Source: Candidatus Poribacteria bacterium
GTDB lineage: Bacteria > Poribacteria > WGA-4E > WGA-3G
DNA length: 64,000 bases
Direction: 5' to 3'
Assembly (NCBI GenBank): GCA_009841255.1
Contig: VXMD01000068.1
Coordinates: 1-64,000, forward strand
Of this stretch, positions 4,066 to 19,303 are shown piece after piece. How positions within the stretch are numbered: position 1 is the first letter of the stretch; every line of letters begins with the position of its first letter. The position numbers and the translations under genes are program-made. Under the pieces are notes generated by a model that made no database searches, was not told where the DNA came from, and was given only the letters and a program-made list of their open reading frames with translations.

Positions 4066-4503
4066 TTAATCTTTTTGCAACCAGAGGGTTAGCATCATCG
4101 CACCGGCGCCGATGACAGTCATGCTTGGGTAATACCACCACAGGAATCGGTTGCGTTTTTTCTCAATGGCTTTTCTTTCCTTTTGGATCTTCGCAATCGC
4201 TCTTTTCCCCTTTTCAAGGGAGGCAGGATCGTCGTTGAGCAACATCCAACGTTGAACGAACAATTCGTCCTCAGTTAGTTTACGAATCTCTGCATCCCAG
4301 TTGTCTAAAGGCGTTAGCCAGTATCCAAAGGAGGTAACGCTGATTACAACGAGGGTTGGGAGCCCGATGAGAGGTCTACTTTTTTCATGCGTGGATGAAT
4401 CGTTCTTTTCTTTCGTTGGTGTAGCGACTGAGACATCTGCCAAGAGGATGGCAAATATTAAAGCGCAGATGAGTGTGAGACGTGATGCAAAGGGTAATGT
4501 CAT
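4066..4503 (-). CDS. Small bitopic protein, B family
   Basis: Unrecognised 145-aa protein starting with ATG at 4503, 10 bp after the lipoprotein gene at 4514. A signal peptide (residues 1-27, cut near VAT) is followed by a second hydrophobic segment around GLPTLVVISVTSFGYWLTPLD, a charged helix rich in Lys/Glu (about 85-125) and a C-terminal membrane span. The central part (YWLTPLD-W, DELFVQRWMLLN-DP-SLEK, IQKER-AIEKKRNRF-WYYP) is nearly the same as in the protein at 18890, which also follows an A-family lipoprotein. The repeated A-B gene order suggests a complex of the two at the cell envelope. Function unknown. Confidence 0.75.
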   Translation of the reverse strand: MTLPFASRLTLICALIFAILLADVSVATPTKEKNDSSTHEKSRPLIGLPTLVVISVTSFGYWLTPLDNWDAEIRKLTEDELFVQRWMLLNDDPASLEKGKRAIAKIQKERKAIEKKRNRFLWWYYPSMTVIGAGAMMLTLWLQKD

Positions 4504-4513
4504 GATTTCTCTC

Positions 4514-5314
4514 CTATGGATTTTGTTGAAAAAAGATACCTTTAGTCCATCTTAGAAACACATTCGTATTCGTGAAATTATTGAGGATTTCTGCGGTTAG
4601 CGCAGGGTTGCGCACGGCGAGCCATAAAAGCCCATCATCTTTTCCATGTTGCGCAAACTGTTCGTCTATTAAGCGGGCATCTTCTTTTTCAGTTTCCTTG
4701 ACGAAGTTTTCAAGGGTGGCGAAGAATTCTTTTCCTTGATTTGGGTTTGGTAGATGCATTTCCATCCAAGCCTTCGTTGGAGCGTCCTCAAGAACTGATA
4801 GTTTTTTTTCGAGTACAGCCAGTATTGCCTTGATGATGTTTTCTTCGTTCCCCTCATGTATCATCTGATATAGTATTACGTTTGCACAGCGATACTTCAA
4901 AGTTATCTGATGGGCAATGACTAGGTCTTCTGCGTTGGGCTTATTGATAAATTCCTTCAAAAAAGGTTTGTATCTTTCCGGGTCAGGTTCTGCTACATCC
5001 AGGTACTCTGTCAATGTTTTAAATGGCTTCTTTGTTCTATATTCTTCGGTAAGAAAGTCCAAATATGTTTTAGAAGTTGTCACCTCACTGAGCTTTGTGA
5101 AGTCTGCATCAAAAATGGGTCGTGGAAATAACGTTTTAAGTTTCCTGAACGTGTCTTCAGGTGTGGGTTTGAGGGGTATAGGTTCGGCGATAAGGGTTCC
5201 GGACGCCGTGTCTATTTCTTCCGTTATGTCATTGTCTGGGTCCTCTGAGCAGCCCAACAATTGAAAAGCAATCGCGAGAAGTATAAAAGCTGTGAAACGT
5301 AGAGAATGCTGCAT
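4514..5314 (-). CDS. Lipoprotein, A family
   Basis: Unrecognised 266-aa protein starting with ATG at 5314. The signal peptide ends in the lipobox LLGC with Cys22, so it should be lipid-anchored. It is clearly paralogous to the proteins at 18046 and 37272: shared blocks are PTPE-TF-KL---FP--I-D-DF--L--VTTSK-YLDFL, the YKPFLKEFI segment and the C-terminal GLLWLA--NPALT---LN-FT-T-VF-RW. The protein is predicted to be mainly helical. It is followed by the B-family gene 10 bp away, the same order as at 18046-19303. No small secreted peptide gene is visible upstream of this copy, unlike the other two cassettes. Confidence 0.8.
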   Translation of the reverse strand: MQHSLRFTAFILLAIAFQLLGCSEDPDNDITEEIDTASGTLIAEPIPLKPTPEDTFRKLKTLFPRPIFDADFTKLSEVTTSKTYLDFLTEEYRTKKPFKTLTEYLDVAEPDPERYKPFLKEFINKPNAEDLVIAHQITLKYRCANVILYQMIHEGNEENIIKAILAVLEKKLSVLEDAPTKAWMEMHLPNPNQGKEFFATLENFVKETEKEDARLIDEQFAQHGKDDGLLWLAVRNPALTAEILNNFTNTNVFLRWTKGIFFQQNP

Positions 5315-5469: not shown

Positions 5470-6543
5470 TTATTCCAAGCCTTCTATTGGCAGTCCACCG
5501 TTTCCTATGTCTCCTACTTTAATGGTGATCTGTTCCTCTTTAGACCCTGTCACGATAAAGCCCTCACCGAGTTCCCCTACAATCGCAGGATATAGGTCTT
5601 TGCTTATCATCCCGATCGGGGTTCCATACGCCGAGACTGATTTCGTTGAGAGGACCAAACGTGACAGGATCCCGTGTGTTACGGCTCGGTATATCGGTAA
5701 TGCCGACTTTCCGTCAGCCAAAAAAGGATGACCGAACGCCACGAATTTATCCTCATATACCTGTGTTACCGTCCCGAAGCCAATGAGGTTTGTAACATCC
5801 CCTGTGACGACGGCGGCACCGATCATATCTCCTGCAGAGAGTTGTGTTGTCGCACCTACTGGCGGTGCTGCAGGGGCACCCCCGATATCGCCAAACATTT
5901 CAACGAAATTGAATTTTGAATTGGAGAGATGTGAAGAAAGTTCTGGAATCCTGTGGGGCTGAATCCCAGTAATCACCATAGGTGTTTTAACAGGTCCATA
6001 CAAGGCATTAATCGCCAGGGCGGGTGCCCCAGGTGCCCCCTCTTCCTCTAAAAACTCACCCAATGTTGGGTGTTCGATAGCCGTTTCCATATAATCAATC
6101 GGTGTGACCAAGAACCGATACGGCGGTTTACTATACGAATACGCGAAGGCAAGCGCACCCATAACACGTCCCGGGGGACCGACCGGACTGCCCGACATGC
6201 CTGCCGCAATCTCTGCGGATTCATCAATCAGTTCGCACTCATAGACAGGGGTTCCAAAGGGACCGTTGTCTCGAACGGATCGAAGTCGCGCCTGAAGGAT
6301 AACTTTACTGGTGCCTTCAAGCACGGTAATGAGTTCCAGGGGCGTCTTACTCGCCAGTTTCCGGACTTCATCCTCGTACATATTCTCCAGGACAACGTCT
6401 CCGACAAAACGTGGGGCGTTAAGAACTCCTGTTGAATTGTCTGTTATGGGGTTTTCAGACTGTGTTTGCTGTTCATCGGGAGAACAGCTGAGTTGGCAGA
6501 GTATTGCGAGGGTGATACCTGCAAAGACAAGAACACGTTTCAC
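5470..6543 (-). CDS. SpoIVB-type S55 peptidase-like lipoprotein
   Basis: 357-aa secreted lipoprotein starting at a GTG (6543) with GGAGG 7 nt upstream. The lipobox cysteine is Cys20 (LSC). The S55 signature GMSGSPV is at residues 115-121 (nucleophile probably Ser117), followed by a VMGALAFAYS strand and FLVTPIDYME. A second conserved block GHPFL is at 271-275, with the YGTPIGMI segment after it. In SpoIVB the GH motif comes before GMSGSP; here the order is reversed. S55 peptidases such as SpoIVB cleave membrane regulators; SpoIVB triggers sigma-K processing in sporulating Bacillus. This gene begins 35 bp behind a membrane-tethered sigma factor gene (6579-9524), which suggests, but does not prove, that the tether or its partner is the substrate. 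Confidence 0.75.
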   Translation of the reverse strand: MKRVLVFAGITLAILCQLSCSPDEQQTQSENPITDNSTGVLNAPRFVGDVVLENMYEDEVRKLASKTPLELITVLEGTSKVILQARLRSVRDNGPFGTPVYECELIDESAEIAAGMSGSPVGPPGRVMGALAFAYSYSKPPYRFLVTPIDYMETAIEHPTLGEFLEEEGAPGAPALAINALYGPVKTPMVITGIQPHRIPELSSHLSNSKFNFVEMFGDIGGAPAAPPVGATTQLSAGDMIGAAVVTGDVTNLIGFGTVTQVYEDKFVAFGHPFLADGKSALPIYRAVTHGILSRLVLSTKSVSAYGTPIGMISKDLYPAIVGELGEGFIVTGSKEEQITIKVGDIGNGGLPIEGLE

Positions 6544-6578: not shown

Positions 6579-9524
6579 TTAGTAGTTTTCTGCTTCAAGC
6601 GAGACCTGAAACATCCCGCGTTTTTCTGTCACAGCGTAGAGTTTGTTGCCATTGATAACGAGAGAGAGAACACTATCTGGCACTTCAGGTGATATCTGTT
6701 TCCATTCACTACGACGATTCAATTGATAGGCACCTTCATTTCCAGCACCATAGACCGTGGTGCCGGACACAGCAATTCGATCTATAATGGTATGCATCCC
6801 GGTCTTATCGGTGATCGCTCGCCAGTATTCACCCGTTTCTGAGGTCAAGACCCCTGCGTCTGTAGCGACATATACTGTTGGACCCGCAAAGACGATCTCT
6901 TTAAAGTGCTTGAAGCGCAGCGGCAAGTTTGAAGTCAGGTCTTTCCATGTGTTGCCACTATCAAACGATTGAAAAAGATGTCCGTCCCGTTTTCCGACAT
7001 AGACGGTCTCTTTTGAGACAGCCAGTGCGATATTTTTCTGGTTCTCTTTCACAGCATCGTCATAATTATCAGGAAACGGAGTCTTATCTATCAATCCGGT
7101 GTTGAACCATTCTAACTCGCCGCGTTTCCAGCGGAAAATCCGCCTCTTATATTCCATATAAAATGTCTCGCCGCTCACTGCGAACTCCGCAGAGAACCTT
7201 TCGAGTTGTCGAGTTGCATCTGCCATACCTATTATGTCCATTACGAAGAGGCTTTCACCGAAAGTAGCAGGTCCTTGGATGGGGACTAACACGTCGCCGC
7301 TCGCAGAGAGACGGAAAAGGCGAACTTCATTTTGTGCGTCGAATGCTGCTGAGATGCCGTAAAGTACGCCGTCAGAGATCGCTAATTTTGCGGAAATCAA
7401 GAGATCCGTAGGTGGGGTTATGTCTGGCGGTTCTAACGCAAGTTCTGCGGAATTCACAGAAAGGGTTTTCCAGGATTTTCCGTTATCAGCGGATTTGGCG
7501 ATACCAAAGCCGGTATTTGCGTAGAGTGCGTTTTTGAATGCTACAAGGTCAAACACTTTGGTGCCTACCATCCCTTTCGTAAATGGGTGCCATGACTGAC
7601 CCCCATCGGTTGAACGGATCAATCCGTCGCGGATTCCAACTTTGAAGAATGTATTTTCGTCCATTGTTAATGTAGGGAACATACTGAAGGCCATCGCATT
7701 CATCAATGCATTCAGATCAGACGTGTCAAATCCGAAGTCTGTCCACGTTTTCCCGCCATCCGTTGAGCGGAATGTGGTGACGCCTAAGGCTAACAGCGTC
7801 TCTCCAGCCGCCAAAACTTTAACACCAGGTGATATTTTCATTGTAAACGAAGTGCTTTTCGGTGTTAACTCCGTCCACGTGTCGCCCAAGTCGGTCGAGT
7901 GGAAGATCTCCCACGAACTTGGGTTGTCACTGCTCATAACTTGACCGATGTACGCCCCAACGCCTTCAGGCGTGTTTAATTGCGAAAGATCGGGACCTGT
8001 CCCGACATAGAGGTTGTTTTTAGAAACTGCCAAGGAATGGATGGCTTTGGTGGTATCCACCGGCAATTTTTCCCACACTCCTGCGCGTGAACGGTAGAGG
8101 CCGTGGTTCATGCCTACAAACACAGTGTTTTCGATAGCAATAAGTGTAAGAATATGAGTGTTTTCATTGACGATCCCATCGTTCGTCGGAGTCCACTGTT
8201 TACCTCCGTTTTCGGATCGGAACAGCTGATTCTCGAGCGCAAGGTAGAGTCCGTGATCCGTTATCGCGAGTCCGACCGGGGTTCCTTTTGGGCGCGTGCC
8301 GAGTGACTTCCAATTCTCGTCGCTATCGGTTGAAGCCCACACCTCATCAGTGGATACAAGATAGAGGGTGCCGTTTCGTTCTGCCATGGGTTTACAGTTG
8401 TGGGCTGTGGAAGTCTCTGGAGGCAATGGACTCACGAGGGTCCATTCAGACACATTGGGTGCTAATCTATAAATACCGCTCGGGGAAGCGGTGTAGATAT
8501 CCCTTGTGGAACTGAGGAGTAATCCCGAGACTGTTCCGCCTTCTGGACCATTTGCTTGTATCCACTGCTGTTTTGTTGATGGAAGTGTTTCCTGCTCTAC
8601 CTGCGCGACGGCAAGCATAACAGGCTCGGAAACTTGGGGTCCCGCACCTTTACTTTTACCGGTGGTATCGAAACGTCCGGCTTGGTTCCGTAAATCCAGT
8701 TTTGCTTGTGTGTCAAGGACAACAGGGACATCGATGATTTCAACAGTGGTTTCTGATCTGGCGTTCAGATTATACGGCTTCTGAAAATGGGCGAGGTATT
8801 GCGACCCGACACCGATTATGAGAAAGATAAAGATGGCTGTTGCGGCAGAGATTGCCCAAGGTATTAAGGGTTTACTGTTCGTAGGCGGTGCCGGTTTTAT
8901 GTTAGCAATCTGTTTTACAATGTTTTCAGTAAAAGCCATAGGTAGATCTACACTGCCAAGCGTTTCGCTCACCAAATCTTCTTGCGCCTTTAAACGATTC
9001 CGTGCACGCTGGAGACGGCTTTTAACTGTGTTTGGAGACACGCCTAAAAATTCACTGATCGCTTTATATGTCATTTCTCCAAGGTAGTGAAGTGTCACGA
9101 CGGTGCGTTCGCTCTCCGGCAATTTTTCTAAAAGACTTCTGACGTGTTCTTGACGATGTTCGACGGAGGCGGCCTCACGTTGTTCGTCTTCGTAGTGACG
9201 GTAGGAGGATTCTTCGATCTCCTCTCCGCTGGTGGTTTCCAAGGATTCCATTGAGGGCTTCTGCTTTCGATGCCAGTCGATACAGATCCGATCAGCGATC
9301 ACATAGAGCCAGCCAGCGAACTGGTTCGGATTCTTTAACGTCGCGAGTTTCTGGTAGGCTTTGAGGAAGGCGTCTTGTGTGAGTTCCTCGGCGATATGGA
9401 AGTCCCCGACCTTCCGCCAAGTGAGGGCGTGAACACTTTTCTGATATTTTTTTAACAGTGTGGTGAAGGCGTTCTCATCGCCTGTCAGGAATTGATTGAC
9501 CAATTGGGCATCTTCGTTTTTCAT
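6579..9524 (-). CDS. Membrane-tethered ECF sigma factor fused to an Asp-box beta-propeller
   Basis: 981 aa from the ATG at 9524 (GGGAG upstream). Residues about 10-82 are sigma region 2 (AEELTQDAFLKAYQKL, FAGWLYVIA), about 125-178 are region 4 with a helix-turn-helix (LPESERTVVTLHYLGEM, AISEFLGVSPNTVKSRLQRAR). A single membrane span lies at about 221-243. The remaining 700 residues contain at least seven Asp-box motifs of the form S-x-D-x-G-x-x-W (for example STDGGKTW, STDGGQSW, SADNGKSW, SFDSGNTW), typical of sialidase, VPS10 or Ycf48-like propellers. The expected topology puts sigma in the cytoplasm and the propeller outside the inner membrane, as a one-protein sensor. A paralogue is at 9866. 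The S55 peptidase gene follows within 35 bp. Most ECF factors are about 180 aa and use a separate anti-sigma. Confidence 0.88.
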   Translation of the reverse strand: MKNEDAQLVNQFLTGDENAFTTLLKKYQKSVHALTWRKVGDFHIAEELTQDAFLKAYQKLATLKNPNQFAGWLYVIADRICIDWHRKQKPSMESLETTSGEEIEESSYRHYEDEQREAASVEHRQEHVRSLLEKLPESERTVVTLHYLGEMTYKAISEFLGVSPNTVKSRLQRARNRLKAQEDLVSETLGSVDLPMAFTENIVKQIANIKPAPPTNSKPLIPWAISAATAIFIFLIIGVGSQYLAHFQKPYNLNARSETTVEIIDVPVVLDTQAKLDLRNQAGRFDTTGKSKGAGPQVSEPVMLAVAQVEQETLPSTKQQWIQANGPEGGTVSGLLLSSTRDIYTASPSGIYRLAPNVSEWTLVSPLPPETSTAHNCKPMAERNGTLYLVSTDEVWASTDSDENWKSLGTRPKGTPVGLAITDHGLYLALENQLFRSENGGKQWTPTNDGIVNENTHILTLIAIENTVFVGMNHGLYRSRAGVWEKLPVDTTKAIHSLAVSKNNLYVGTGPDLSQLNTPEGVGAYIGQVMSSDNPSSWEIFHSTDLGDTWTELTPKSTSFTMKISPGVKVLAAGETLLALGVTTFRSTDGGKTWTDFGFDTSDLNALMNAMAFSMFPTLTMDENTFFKVGIRDGLIRSTDGGQSWHPFTKGMVGTKVFDLVAFKNALYANTGFGIAKSADNGKSWKTLSVNSAELALEPPDITPPTDLLISAKLAISDGVLYGISAAFDAQNEVRLFRLSASGDVLVPIQGPATFGESLFVMDIIGMADATRQLERFSAEFAVSGETFYMEYKRRIFRWKRGELEWFNTGLIDKTPFPDNYDDAVKENQKNIALAVSKETVYVGKRDGHLFQSFDSGNTWKDLTSNLPLRFKHFKEIVFAGPTVYVATDAGVLTSETGEYWRAITDKTGMHTIIDRIAVSGTTVYGAGNEGAYQLNRRSEWKQISPEVPDSVLSLVINGNKLYAVTEKRGMFQVSLEAENY

Positions 9525-9553
9525 CAAGTGTCTCCCGGGTGACTTAAACGTGC

Positions 9554-9572
9554 GCGTTTTTAACGCGCGAGT
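9554..9572 (-). promoter_or_regulatory. Inverted repeat in the leader of the sigma-propeller gene
   Basis: GCGCGTT-ttt-AACGCGC forms a 7-bp perfect stem about 30 bp before the start codon. The paralogous gene has a similar inverted repeat at the same place (12828-12844). It could be an operator or an RNA hairpin in the 5' leader. Confidence 0.4.
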
Positions 9573-9596
9573 CTCAGACTGCTGTTACTAATTAAT

Positions 9597-9624
9597 GACG
9601 AGATTTAAAGAACAGAAGGGTGCA
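9597..9624 (-). promoter_or_regulatory. Putative ECF-type promoter of the sigma-propeller gene
   Basis: On the minus strand TGCACCCTT (9616-9624) is followed after 15 bp by CGTCATTAAT, with the core CGTC at 9597-9600. The same pair with the same spacing precedes the paralogous sigma-propeller gene (12868-12895). AACC/CACC at -35 and CGTC at -10 are the form expected for ECF sigma factors, so autoregulation is likely. The rest of 9525-9865 (341 bp) holds AT-rich sequence and one palindromic repeat (9753-9780); no gene is seen. Confidence 0.5.
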
Positions 9625-9752
9625 TAACGAGAAAAAATTAGAGAAATTATATCATAATTACGCTGAAATATTTTTTTTATATGACACAAGTTGCTACCGA
9701 ATAGGTCTTGAGCGTTTAAACGCAGATTTTTCAGAGAAAAGCATCTCTTCAT

Positions 9753-9780
9753 ACCCCGTAGGGGTGCTATGTCTACAGAG
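9753..9780. repeat. Palindromic element, TCTATAGACAT family
   Basis: The hairpin ACCCC-gta-GGGGT is followed by GCTATGTCTACAGA. It lies between the two sigma-propeller genes. Confidence 0.65.
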
Positions 9781-9865
9781 ATTTAAAATAAAAAGAGAGT
9801 GGTAATTCTGTTGGTAAAATCACCACTCTATTGGAGACACGTCGAGAGAATCGTTGCTCAAACGC

Positions 9866-12796
9866 CTATTGTTCTTTATTCAGAGAGACATGGAACATCC
9901 CGCGATGTTCGGTCACGATATAGAGTCCATAATTATTAATCACGAAAGCCTTGACCCTATCGGGCACTTCTGGTGTGATCTGTTCCCATTCATCTCGATT
10001 GTTCAGTCGATAAACCCCCTCATCACCAACACCGTAGACTGTTGTGGTATCCACAGCCATCCGATCAATGAGAGGGTGTGTGCCTGCCGTATCGGTGATC
10101 GCTCGCCAATGTTTACCGTCTTCTGAGGTCAAGACACCCGCGTCGGTCGCAACATAGACTGTTGAACCCGCAAAGATTATCTCTTTGAAACGCTCAAAAC
10201 GCAGCGGTAGGTTTGCAGTCACATCTTTCCATGTAACACCACTGTCAAACGATTGGAATAGGATTCCATCGCGTTTTCCAACATAGACGGTCTCTTCTGA
10301 AACAGCAAGCTTGAAACTCCACATAGAATCATCACTGAAATCAGAGCGTTTGCTCGTATCTGTCAATCCGGTGTTAAACCATTTTGATTCACCGCGTTTC
10401 CATCGAAGAAGTTGCCGCATGTGTTCCACATAGAATGTATCACTGCTGACTGAAAACGCACCGAGTCCAAACATAAATCGTTCGAATTGGAACATTTTAT
10501 TCATCCAATCCTTTATATCTCTAGTGGAAGGGACTTCCTCAAGGGCGGGGACCCCTTGGATGGGAACTAATACGTTCCCATTTGCAGAGAGGCGGAAGAT
10601 GTGCAGTTTATACTCGAGGACTGAATCGGGTGAGGCCACATAAAGCGCACCCTCGGCGGTTGCGAATTTTGGGGAAATCAGAGGGGTGTCTGTCTCTTCT
10701 TGTTTTAGTGTGAGTTCACCAGAACTCACGGTGAGTTTGTTCCATGACGCGCCACCATCACTGGATTTGGAAACGCCCTGAGAGATTCTCGTGTAAAGCG
10801 TATCCTTGAACCCCACTAAGTTGGACATGCCCGCGCTTACGAGCCCATCCGTAAATGGATGCCACGATTCACCACCATCAGTTGAGCGTGTAAGCCCAGA
10901 AATGCTGTCTCTGAAAATAGTATTTTCATCCATCGCTACACTGGGAAATATAGTGGGTGTGACGATACTGGAGTTGAAACCAAATTCTGTCCATGTTTTT
11001 CCGGCATCGGTTGAGCGGAAGCTCAACATATCTAACACCAAAACGGCGTTTCCAGCTACCAAGACTTTAACACCCGATGAAACTCTCATCATGTGAGATT
11101 TACTTGTCGGTGTTATATTGGTCCACGACTCACCTAAATCGGTTGAATGGAAAACTTCCCATCTGGGTCCGGTATCGTTCATCATCTCTGCTATAAGCTC
11201 ATCTATCTTCGCTTTCCTACCTTCAGGGGTTTCCATCTGAGATTTCGCTAGAGAAAGATCAGAACCCGTTCCGACATAGAGATCGTTTCCAGAGACTGCC
11301 AAAGAACGAATGGCTTTCGTGGTATCTATCGACAATTTCTTCGATGTGTCTGAATGCAGGCGGTAGAGTCCTTTGTTCGTGCCGACAAATACCGTGTTTT
11401 CAATAGCAACTATCGCATTAATACCGCTGTCTGCTATTTCATTGTTGAGCGGGCTCCACTCTTTACCTCCATTTGTTGACCGGAAGATGCCTTCGCCAGC
11501 TCGAAGCCCGAGGTACAAGGCGTCATCCGTTATCGCCAATCCAAGGGCGCGCCCCTTTGGACGTCCACCGAGTTTTCTCCATGTTTCGCCTCTATCTTTT
11601 GAAGTGAACACACCGTTAGAAAAGACGAGATAGAGCGTACCATTTCGTTCTGCTATCCGTATGCCGTCCCTGTCTACAGACGCCTCTGGAGGGACTGAAT
11701 TAACGAGCGTCCAGGCGGGGGCATCTGGTGCTAATCTGTAGATACCGATTTTCGAAGTCGCATAGACATCCCCCCACGAACTGACTATTAAGCCCGATAC
11801 TGAGGCTTCTTCTTGTGGACCGCTTGCCTGTATCCACTGCTGTTCTGTTGATGGACGCGTCTCCTTTTCTACCTGCGCGGCGGCAAGCATAACAGGTTCC
11901 GAAACTTGCGGACCGGTGCCACTGCTCTTCCCGGTGGTATCGAAACGTCCGGATTGGTTCCGTAGATCAGGTTTCGCTTGTGTATCCAAGACAATAGGGG
12001 CATCAATAATTTCAACCGTGATTTCCGATTGTGCGTTCAGGTTATACGGTTTCTGGAAGCGAGAAAGGTATTGAGACCCTGTACCTATTATGAGAAAGAT
12101 AAAGATGGCTGTTGCGGCAGAAATTGCCCACGGCAGGAGCGGTTTGCTACTGGTAGGAGATATTGGTTGGAGTTCAGCGGTTTTCTTCAGAATATTCTCG
12201 GTGAGGTCGGCAGGCAATTGTACGCTGCCAAGGGTTTCCTGAATCATGGTTTCTTGCTCCTTTAAACGGTTCCGAGCCCGTTGGAGACGGCTCTTGATTG
12301 TGTTTACTGAGACACCTAAGAACTTACTTATTTCCTTCGTTGTCATTTCCCCGAGATAGTGGAGTGTCACGACGGTGCGTTCGCTCTCGGGGAGTTTCTC
12401 TAAGAGACTTCTGATGTACCTTTGACGGTGTTCCGTAGAGGCTTCCTCACGCTGTTCATCTTCGTAGTGCCGATAAGATGACATGTCTATCTCCTCTTCA
12501 CTCGTAGTTTCTAAGGATTCCATCTGGGACTTCTGCTTTCGGTGCCAGGCGATACAGAGTCTGTCGGCAATCACATAGAGCCAGCCAGCGAACTGGTTCG
12601 GGTTCTTCAGCGTCCCAAGTTTCTGGTATGCCTTGAGGAAGGCGTCCTGCGTAAGTTCCTCAGCAGTATGGAAATCGCCGACCTTCCGCCATGCGAGGGC
12701 GTGGACGCTCTTCTGGTATTTTTTTACCAGTGTGGTGAAGGCACCCTCGTCCCCTGACAGGAATCGGTTAACCAGTTGGGCATCTTCGTTTTTCAT
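9866..12796 (-). CDS. Membrane-tethered ECF sigma factor fused to an Asp-box beta-propeller (second paralogue)
   Basis: 976 aa from the ATG at 12796 (GGAGAG upstream); longer readings are not needed. The layout matches the neighbour at 6579: sigma region 2 (about 10-82), region 4 helix-turn-helix (ISKFLGVSVNTIKSRLQRAR, about 155-175), one membrane span near 221-243, and a propeller with at least seven Asp boxes (SKDRGETW, STNGGKEW, STDLGESW, STDAGKTW, STDGGESW, SSDGGASW, SFDSGVTW). The sigma part is much more conserved between the paralogues than parts of the propeller, which is what different ligands but similar promoters would produce. Two intact copies argue against an assembly artefact or frameshift fusion. 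No anti-sigma gene is adjacent. Confidence 0.88.
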   Translation of the reverse strand: MKNEDAQLVNRFLSGDEGAFTTLVKKYQKSVHALAWRKVGDFHTAEELTQDAFLKAYQKLGTLKNPNQFAGWLYVIADRLCIAWHRKQKSQMESLETTSEEEIDMSSYRHYEDEQREEASTEHRQRYIRSLLEKLPESERTVVTLHYLGEMTTKEISKFLGVSVNTIKSRLQRARNRLKEQETMIQETLGSVQLPADLTENILKKTAELQPISPTSSKPLLPWAISAATAIFIFLIIGTGSQYLSRFQKPYNLNAQSEITVEIIDAPIVLDTQAKPDLRNQSGRFDTTGKSSGTGPQVSEPVMLAAAQVEKETRPSTEQQWIQASGPQEEASVSGLIVSSWGDVYATSKIGIYRLAPDAPAWTLVNSVPPEASVDRDGIRIAERNGTLYLVFSNGVFTSKDRGETWRKLGGRPKGRALGLAITDDALYLGLRAGEGIFRSTNGGKEWSPLNNEIADSGINAIVAIENTVFVGTNKGLYRLHSDTSKKLSIDTTKAIRSLAVSGNDLYVGTGSDLSLAKSQMETPEGRKAKIDELIAEMMNDTGPRWEVFHSTDLGESWTNITPTSKSHMMRVSSGVKVLVAGNAVLVLDMLSFRSTDAGKTWTEFGFNSSIVTPTIFPSVAMDENTIFRDSISGLTRSTDGGESWHPFTDGLVSAGMSNLVGFKDTLYTRISQGVSKSSDGGASWNKLTVSSGELTLKQEETDTPLISPKFATAEGALYVASPDSVLEYKLHIFRLSANGNVLVPIQGVPALEEVPSTRDIKDWMNKMFQFERFMFGLGAFSVSSDTFYVEHMRQLLRWKRGESKWFNTGLTDTSKRSDFSDDSMWSFKLAVSEETVYVGKRDGILFQSFDSGVTWKDVTANLPLRFERFKEIIFAGSTVYVATDAGVLTSEDGKHWRAITDTAGTHPLIDRMAVDTTTVYGVGDEGVYRLNNRDEWEQITPEVPDRVKAFVINNYGLYIVTEHRGMFHVSLNKEQ

Positions 12797-12844: not shown

Positions 12845-12867
12845 CTCGAACTGCTGTTACTATTAAT

Positions 12868-12895
12868 GACGCGATTTAAAGAGGCAAAGGTTGCA
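12868..12895 (-). promoter_or_regulatory. Putative ECF-type promoter of the second sigma-propeller gene
   Basis: On the minus strand TGCAACCTT (12887-12895) is followed after 15 bp by CGTCATTAAT (core CGTC at 12868-12871). Sequence around it (CTCTTTAAATC before -10, AGTAACAGCAGT after it) is also shared with the paralogue's upstream region. The predicted leader is about 65 nt. Confidence 0.5.
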
Positions 12896-17987: not shown

Positions 17988-18045
17988 AGATGTTTAAGGA
18001 GAATGTATTGTGTTTCCTCTCCAAAGTTTAAGGGGTTTCTTTCAA

Positions 18046-18873
18046 ATGAGAATGAATTCCATAATTTATCTTTTCGCTATTCCTGTTTTTATGGTAACAC
18101 ATATATCAGGATGTACGGACACCGAAGAGCTAAACCAGTTCATTGGGAATACGGCGATCGCTGAGGAAACAGAAGTCGCATCCGTAGCCAGTAAGCCCAC
18201 ACCTGAAATCACTTTCGCAAAACTGCGGCAGGAATTTCCTGATGAAATTTTGGATAAAGACTTCAACACGCTAAAAAAAGTGACGACTTCTAAAAACTAC
18301 TTGGATTTTCTTGTCCAGACTTATCCTGCGGTGGTTCCCTTTGAAACCTTGGATGGGTTTCTTCACGTTGCCCCTCCGCCCCCCAAAAAATACGAGCCTT
18401 TTTTGAAGGAATTTATCGCAACACCTACCGAAAAAGATGTAACTAACATTCATCACATGTTTTTAACCTATCGGCACTTGAATGCAGAAATGCACCAAAT
18501 AACTCACGAGGGCGATATTTTAGGGACAGCTAACCTTATTTTTAAAAGGGTGGAAGTTGTTCAAAAAGATCCCATCAAGACATGGATGGCGGACCGTTTG
18601 GCTGATCTGGATCAAAAGTCACTTCAGAAGTTCTTCACTGATTTTGAAAATTTCGTTATTGAAACCGAAAAGATGGATGCCCGGCAGATACAGGAACTAT
18701 TTGAGACATACGGGAAAGAGGAAGGGCTTTTATGGCTCGCGATTCTTGAACCCGCACTCACCGGACAAGTCCTCAATGACTTTACCGATACAGAAGTTTT
18801 TTTCAAGTGGGTTAAAGGGGAATTCTTTTTAGAGAATCCGATTATTCCGCTCAACCTACCAATACCTCAGTAA
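18046..18873 (+). CDS. Lipoprotein, A family
   Basis: 275 aa if the ATG at 18046 is used; this gives a compact signal peptide with a lipobox-like ISGC (Cys23). A GTG at 18010 with AAGGAG 8 nt before it is the alternative. The sequence is a close paralogue of the protein at 4514 throughout (KPTPE-TF-KL---FP--I-D-DF, TTSK-YLDFL, Y-PFLKEFI, GLLWLA--EPALTG-VLNDFTDTEVFFKW) and of 37272 more distantly. It sits between the Cys-rich peptide and a B-family gene. If the peptide is a toxin, this lipoprotein is a candidate immunity or export factor; that is only a hypothesis. Confidence 0.78.
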   Translation: MRMNSIIYLFAIPVFMVTHISGCTDTEELNQFIGNTAIAEETEVASVASKPTPEITFAKLRQEFPDEILDKDFNTLKKVTTSKNYLDFLVQTYPAVVPFETLDGFLHVAPPPPKKYEPFLKEFIATPTEKDVTNIHHMFLTYRHLNAEMHQITHEGDILGTANLIFKRVEVVQKDPIKTWMADRLADLDQKSLQKFFTDFENFVIETEKMDARQIQELFETYGKEEGLLWLAILEPALTGQVLNDFTDTEVFFKWVKGEFFLENPIIPLNLPIPQ

Positions 18874-18889
18874 AGATTGGAGAACCTTC

Positions 18890-19303
18890 ATGTCCTTACC
18901 CAAAACCAGACATATTGTGTGTGTATGTATCCTAATCCTTGCAGTTTTGTTCGGAAATATTCCTCCGACCAATGCAGACTCCAACATTTCTTTTTTCAAC
19001 AGCGATTTTATCATTGCCATGGGAGTGGGTTTCATTGGATACTATCTGACCCCACTGGATGACTGGCAAGCGAAGATTCACAAACTCAAACAAGACGAAT
19101 TGTTCGTCCAACGTTGGATGCTGCTCAACAACGATCCTACCTCCCTTGAAAAAGCGGAAAGAGCCATAGAGAATATCCAAAAAGAAAGAGAAGCCATAGA
19201 GAAAAAACGCAACCGATTTCGATTGTGGTATTATCCTGCCATTACGATAGTTGGGACGAGCGTGCTAATGTTAGCCGGGTGGATTTTTGGAGGCTCTTCA
19301 TGA
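18890..19303 (+). CDS. Small bitopic protein, B family
   Basis: 137 aa with GGAG before the ATG. The protein has a signal-like N-terminal segment (residues 7-27, TNA), a second hydrophobic stretch near FIIAMGVGFIGYYLTPLDDW, a long charged helix (KAERAIENIQKEREAIEKKRNRF) and a final membrane span (IVGTSVLMLAGWIF). It is a clear paralogue of the protein at 4066 (about two thirds of central residues identical by eye), and both follow an A-family lipoprotein. Its stop overlaps the next start (ATGA), so it is co-translated with the C-family gene. Confidence 0.78.
   Translation: MSLPKTRHIVCVCILILAVLFGNIPPTNADSNISFFNSDFIIAMGVGFIGYYLTPLDDWQAKIHKLKQDELFVQRWMLLNNDPTSLEKAERAIENIQKEREAIEKKRNRFRLWYYPAITIVGTSVLMLAGWIFGGSS

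Follow-up and report, generated by a model that had tools for sequence, protein, structure and literature searches.

The window analysed here is a 64-kb stretch of one contig (C68) from a 5.73-Mb, 87-contig genome of Candidatus Poribacteria, an uncultured lineage known from sponges. Two neighbouring paralogous open reading frames lie on its reverse (-) strand, gene 1 at 6579..9524 and gene 2 at 9866..12796, which encode proteins of 981 and 976 aa that are 63% identical; in this the original prediction, made from the letters of the sequence, was accurate. Lengths are counted from an ATG that is conserved in the family, and upstream TTG/ATG starts would give 982 and 985 aa. The pair adjoins nagB and MOSC genes, and the same neighbourhood occurs in seven other fetched Poribacteria loci. 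At the orthologous nagB-MOSC locus L041 there is a single copy, 87% identical to the gene 1 product, and thus we interpret the pair as a tandem duplication. All features of the two genes described below are on the same (-) strand.

Directly after gene 1 lies a gene for a SpoIVB-S55-like lipoprotein (5470-6543, -; E 1e-3), which is C-terminally truncated relative to the 626-aa homologue of L045. After it come two small exported proteins of no known family (4066-5314, -), and a second pair of these, 46-48% identical to the first, is encoded at 17998-19300 (+).

Architecture of the two proteins

The sigma part of both proteins comprises regions 2 and 4 only, without region 1.1 or region 3. Pfam Sigma70_r2 matches region 2 of gene 1 (9258..9458; 1e-13) and gene 2 (12530..12730; 4e-14), and Sigma70_r4_2 matches region 4 (8991..9143, 4e-18; 12263..12421, 3e-18), all well above cut-off; TIGR02937 is also above cut-off. 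The profile search therefore bears out the claim that sigma regions 2 and 4 are complete in both. With a profile of 47 relatives, the closest solved relative of the sigma part is SigW of B. subtilis, matched over residues 9-183 of 187 (5e-33).

Next to the membrane, on the cytoplasmic side, gene 1 encodes a helix of the LTENIMRQIA type (8904..8939; AlphaFold2 helix 197-208, modest confidence), a possible latch, and this pattern is conserved among 140 relatives. Hydropathy gives each protein the single membrane span that had been proposed, at approximately residues 222-244 in gene 1 (8796..8864; AlphaFold2 helix 227-247, low confidence) and at 12068..12136 in gene 2. The segment has a mean score of 2.1 and is present in each of the 140 relatives matched by the family model through this region. 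Beyond it follows an extracytoplasmic juxtamembrane motif (8673..8786 in gene 1, 11945..12058 in gene 2), which reads FQkPY..A.SEpTiEiidapivld..aKPdvRnQ.Gr in gene 1 and is conserved in paralogues with different ectodomains. Pfam scans found no zinc-finger (zf-HC2), FecR-type or other anti-sigma domain in either protein. Cysteines number one or two in all per protein, with a single one in the sigma part, at residue 101 of the open frame.

The remainder of each protein is an Asp-box propeller ectodomain, assigned in gene 1 (6600..8561) from Pfam, Asp-box counts, AlphaFold2 and Foldseek, and placed in gene 2 (9869..11833) by homology to gene 1. There are six Asp boxes in gene 1 and seven in gene 2, compared with about 0.1 expected from shuffled sequence, and Asp-box-type matches reach the C-terminus of both proteins. 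The prediction of seven or more boxes thus holds for gene 2 and is one too high for gene 1; similarly, the propeller domain is present, but it spans about 650 residues rather than about 700. The AlphaFold2 model of the gene 1 product is good over the propeller (strands 323 to 976, pLDDT mostly 75-94), fair over the sigma part and of low confidence over the transmembrane segment and stalk. Pfam Sortilin-Vps10 is above cut-off in both proteins and DUF6242 in the gene 1 product; BNR/PSII_BNR also match.

Outside the sigma part, the structures matched by the profile of 47 relatives are xyloglucanases, sortilin and Ycf48. Foldseek also ranks GH74 xyloglucanases first (best 2cn3, TM-score 0.46 by query and 0.60 by target, rmsd 7.8), and the heparin-sensing periplasmic domain of BT4663 appears further down with BT4673 at weaker similarity. 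Hallmarks of GH74 xyloglucanases are two tandem seven-bladed propellers and a catalytic Asp pair. As the fold resembles both GH74 and the heparin sensor, it suggests a glycan as the propeller ligand, a guess to which we give moderate weight.

Because each protein has a single transmembrane segment and its sigma domain would reside in the cytoplasm, we infer that the propeller is extracytoplasmic, as originally predicted. Two observations agree with this placement: Asp-box homologues of the same genome that are not fused start, as read by eye, with a signal peptide (L158, L159) or a lipobox (L161), and cysteine is scarce in the ectodomains (0.28% versus 0.99% in other ORFs). The positive-inside signal is weak (2.05 versus 1.59 K+R).

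A paralogous family in Poribacteria

The window pair is part of a large family. Sigma70_r2 is matched 58 times in the genome that contains the window, roughly half of these matches being in open frames of unusual length, and approximately 18-20 copies have the N-terminal sigma-linker-transmembrane module of the window pair. These share a cytoplasmic linker of the type LTENIMRQIAxxKPxPPxxKPLxPW, followed by the membrane span and an extracytoplasmic stalk, FQkPYsfeAxSEpTiEIIDAPivLDxxsKPxvRNQxGR. The ectodomains that come after this shared module vary; most are of the Asp-box type, and others are Kelch (L001), WD40 (L008), PD40 (L015), Reg_prop (L017) and AhpC/TSA, which is thioredoxin-like (L006). 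L015 has the sigma-linker-transmembrane part and lacks the stalk.

The same architecture was found in relatives throughout the genus and order. All 78 of the 78 loci kept as nearest relatives in named genomes belong to metagenome-assembled Candidatus Poribacteria, and the module is matched at E <1e-30 in 57 genomes (60 relatives searched). Each same-genus genome has from 13 to at least 40 module matches, some of which may cover the sigma part only, and other families of the order also have transmembrane versions with the same linker pattern. Family members are found on single-contig chromosomes as well. These family counts, like those for the promoter motif below, come from sequence searches together with stretches of up to 20 kb.

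In comparisons of orthologues, dN/dS is 0.06-0.07 for the sigma part, 0.02-0.13 for the stalk and 0.18-0.29 for the ectodomain; the low value in each indicates that the three are jointly under purifying selection. The many open-frame copies, their presence on single-contig chromosomes and the low dN/dS together show that the family is real beyond chance. The original prediction had excluded a chance frameshift from two adjacent copies. By computation the fusion is intact and conserved, and its retention in many relatives with a membrane span and intact sigma regions supports reading it as a one-protein transmembrane sensor. What had been presented as an unusual ECF design does have the proposed architecture, but it stands within a large set of paralogues, and membrane-fused ECF factors were already known or proposed. 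Such sensor-sigma proteins number dozens per genome, and each could probably pass an outside signal to the genes without a separate partner.

A probable shared ECF-type promoter motif

A bipartite sequence, TGCAMC(C)TTT followed by a spacer and CGTCA, precedes both genes. Under the strict pattern TGCAMC-N18-CGTCA the window holds exactly two sites, one before each gene, where 0.05 are expected: TGCACCCTTCTGTTCTTTAAATCTCGTCA at 9596..9624 (-), the predicted ECF-type promoter of gene 1, and TGCAACCTTTGCCTCTTTAAATCGCGTCA at 12867..12895 (-), that of gene 2. In their spacing and in their AAC and CGTC cores, these sites are in line with ECF promoters generally. Genome-wide there are 17 strict sites, compared with 5 for the pattern read backwards.

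The motif was spotted by eye and then tested against shuffles, the reverse complement and other ORFs. Within 250 bp upstream it occurs before 61 of 163 family genes (shuffles mean 4.3, maximum 10; reverse complement 4), which leaves approximately 60% of family genes without a match to the pattern used. At loci from the window's own genome it precedes 14 of 39 family genes and 20 of 552 other ORFs (Fisher p 1.5e-9). The testing was done partly on the sequences in which the motif was first seen, the window genes included, and the relatives and the read-backwards control are more independent. The motif is enriched in the genus where the family has expanded, and it is near the control level in the other families of the order. 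Counting of 4-mer pairs and gaps upstream of 17 family genes from the same genome returned T-rich pairs only.

A terminator-like hairpin with 14 pairs and a T tail follows gene 2 (9796..9829, -); it has the longest stem of 11 such sites found, where 6.6 are expected. As it falls between gene 2 and the predicted promoter of gene 1, the two genes may be separate transcription units. Downstream of the predicted promoter of gene 1 and ahead of its ribosome-binding site, at 9540-9580 (-), is a perfect hairpin, GCGCGTTAAAAACGCGC; a weaker one is seen in gene 2.

The presence of ECF-type promoter sites before family genes suggests that the sigma domains are probably active and autoregulated. From its position, we infer that the motif is recognised by the tethered sigma factors themselves and not by another ECF factor. 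Judged by eye from their sequences, the genes that follow strict sites encode, among others, ABC transporters, a MacB-like permease, a TonB-like protein, a STAS-domain protein, a MoxR ATPase and secreted proteins, from which we predict an envelope-type regulon. The predicted promoter makes reporter tests feasible in a laboratory host.

Proposed mechanism and alternatives

ECF sigma factors are a main bacterial route of response to the surroundings, and most of those studied are held by a separate anti-sigma protein. For the window proteins we consider it reasonably probable that each is a one-component transmembrane ECF sigma factor, held by its tether, freed by regulated proteolysis and feeding back on its own promoter. 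The cytoplasmic sigma domain would be kept off RNA polymerase by the transmembrane helix and the short conserved cytoplasmic helix, while the propeller outside would sense a ligand, with a glycan or a surface protein the likeliest candidates. Once bound, the ligand would lay the conserved stalk next to the membrane open to a site-1 protease, after which an RseP-type site-2 protease would cut the transmembrane helix and free the sigma domain. The freed domain would take RNA polymerase to TGCAMC-N18-CGTCA promoters, including, in positive feedback, that of its own gene and also those of a few envelope and transport genes.

Precedent for the release step exists in IutY of P. putida, a single polypeptide whose sigma part is set free by Prc and RseP (PMC5411451). 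The genome studied here encodes an RseP-like M50 protease of 578 aa with an HELGH motif; a site-1 protease was neither identified nor linked to the genes. The neighbouring SpoIVB-S55-like protein was considered for this role and dropped, as its match is below the Pfam cut-off, it is truncated and it lies near the family in only two fetched relatives; an S55 match above cut-off is located elsewhere. A stalk conserved across differing ectodomains is to be expected if the proteins share a protease site, and equally if they share a partner protein.

That missing link to a site-1 protease favours a different reading, in which the sigma domain stays uncut and the membrane-bound protein changes conformation or oligomeric state on ligand binding and recruits RNA polymerase, like ToxR and CadC. 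The conserved juxtamembrane helix and stalk would also fit mechanical transmission of a signal. However, ECF factors bind core RNA polymerase extensively and must depart the promoter with the enzyme, and the fused example IutY requires RseP (PMC5411451), of which a homologue is encoded here; we regard action without cleavage as fairly unlikely. Improbable, in our judgement, is a propeller that serves mainly as an enzyme or adhesin, through GH74-like hydrolysis or surface binding, with the sigma domain reporting its assembly or integrity. The top fold matches are GH74 xyloglucanases and there is an NCBIfam F510_1955 glycosylhydrolase match below cut-off, yet identity to GH74 is about 15%, without a reliable alignment over the catalytic residues, and the Kelch, WD40, PD40 and thioredoxin-like ectodomains borne on the same N-terminus fit interchangeable sensors better.

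Two further readings would remove the sigma factor or the fusion itself. The sigma domain could be degenerate, a protein adaptor or DNA-binding anchor and not an initiation factor, and with so many near-identical paralogues perhaps not all are required as sigma factors; intact regions throughout, a dN/dS of about 0.06 and an ECF-type promoter before the genes make this very improbable. There is likewise only a slim chance that the fusion is apparent, with separate sigma and propeller polypeptides arising through an internal start or an assembly error, since the ORFs are unbroken, the joint region is conserved and the same joint recurs in many relatives and assemblies, single-contig chromosomes among them. 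Release of a tethered sigma factor by proteolysis thus remains the reading that we prefer. A broader proposal, possible but not one we would call probable, is that these proteins form a new signalling class in which many sensors with swappable ectodomains share a near-identical sigma domain and promoter motif, the tether itself does the silencing, and the ECF module is also coupled to cytoplasmic proteins. If this is true, ECF fusions to DnaN, PurC and FtsZ-DnaE could couple sigma activity to many protein states.

Relation to known systems

BT4663 and BT4673 of Bacteroides thetaiotaomicron, to which the fold similarity is weak, resemble the window proteins in combining an outside propeller sensor with control of transcription in one protein. 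Their output is a histidine kinase with an AraC-type HTH and not a sigma factor, and their propellers are Reg_prop with Y_Y_Y. Among ECF factors, the membrane-fused groups known are ECF243, ECF48, ECF52 and ECF53 (PMC8999054). IutY (ECF243) shares with the window proteins a single polypeptide of ECF sigma domain, one transmembrane segment and a periplasmic part; however, its periplasmic part is an anti-sigma domain of the cell-surface-signalling type that listens to a TonB-dependent receptor, whereas the window proteins have a propeller and no FecR-type match, and its release by Prc and RseP is demonstrated where theirs is conjectural (PMC5411451).

SCO4117, an ECF52 protein of Actinobacteria, likewise joins an ECF sigma domain, a transmembrane segment and an extracytoplasmic domain, with predicted autoregulation and a proposed proteolytic release (PMC5826349). 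Its extracytoplasmic domain is a carbohydrate-binding module, whereas that of the window proteins is a GH74-like propeller with putative carbohydrate binding; in ECF52 the anti-sigma domain is a zinc finger on the cytoplasmic side and the stalk is rich in proline (PMC5826349), in contrast to the Poribacteria proteins with no zinc finger and one or two cysteines. ECF57-type factors resemble the window proteins in their C-terminal propeller-type repeats, but these WD40-like extensions are for protein interaction, and two conserved cysteines may link sigma2 and sigma4 (PMC8999054), where the window sigma parts have a single one. The absence of both a zinc finger and a FecR-type domain sets the window proteins apart from ECF52 and ECF243.

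The principle of membrane-fused ECF factors is thus already known from IutY and ECF52. New are the propeller sensors, the lack of a recognisable anti-sigma domain, the dozens of copies with swapped sensors and the probable shared promoter motif; we found no published description of propeller-tethered sigma factors of Poribacteria in the open-access literature. Dozens of single-protein ECF factors with interchangeable outside sensors appear to have arisen in this lineage. The family lends itself to tests of how a sigma factor can be silenced by a tether that has no recognisable anti-sigma domain, and of how numerous paralogous sensors have one promoter motif in common. It may also give insight into how uncultured, sponge-known bacteria read their surroundings.

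Other ECF fusions

The same genome encodes several ECF fusions to cytoplasmic proteins. On contig C24, a 1363-aa ORF (L026:4439-8527, -) joins a divergent ECF sigma domain to FtsZ and DnaE, with Pfam matches to the FtsZ GTPase and C-terminal domains and to the DnaE PHP, NTPase and finger domains. Of 12 other same-genus genomes searched, 10, single-contig chromosomes among them, match its sigma-FtsZ part in one long open frame of 1349-1758 aa, and one further same-genus genome has a shorter sigma-FtsZ frame of 564; the Pfam check of the DnaE part covers only the genome that contains the window. A normal FtsZ exists besides the fusion. A second ECF sigma-FtsZ fusion, of 418 aa and with the FtsZ GTPase domain only, is encoded at L002:12047-13300 (-), and most same-genus genomes searched have counterparts of 404-445 aa.

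Three others belong to the same ECF family as the window pair, are in frame and have no transmembrane segment. One joins an ECF sigma domain to a complete DnaN clamp with all three domains (L002:16553-18361, -; 603 aa); it is present in most same-genus genomes searched, and the clamp retains its own in-frame Met start. This fusion recalls the clamp-coupled sigma factor of phage T4 late transcription. The ECF sigma domain is fused to SAICAR synthetase (PurC) at L003:7144-8739 (+) and to an M61-type peptidase with PDZ at L007:10841-13888 (-). Additionally, at locus L174 in a genome of the same class (G057), an ECF sigma domain seems to precede a domain that was named by eye from the sequence as a DUF151-like bifunctional nuclease.
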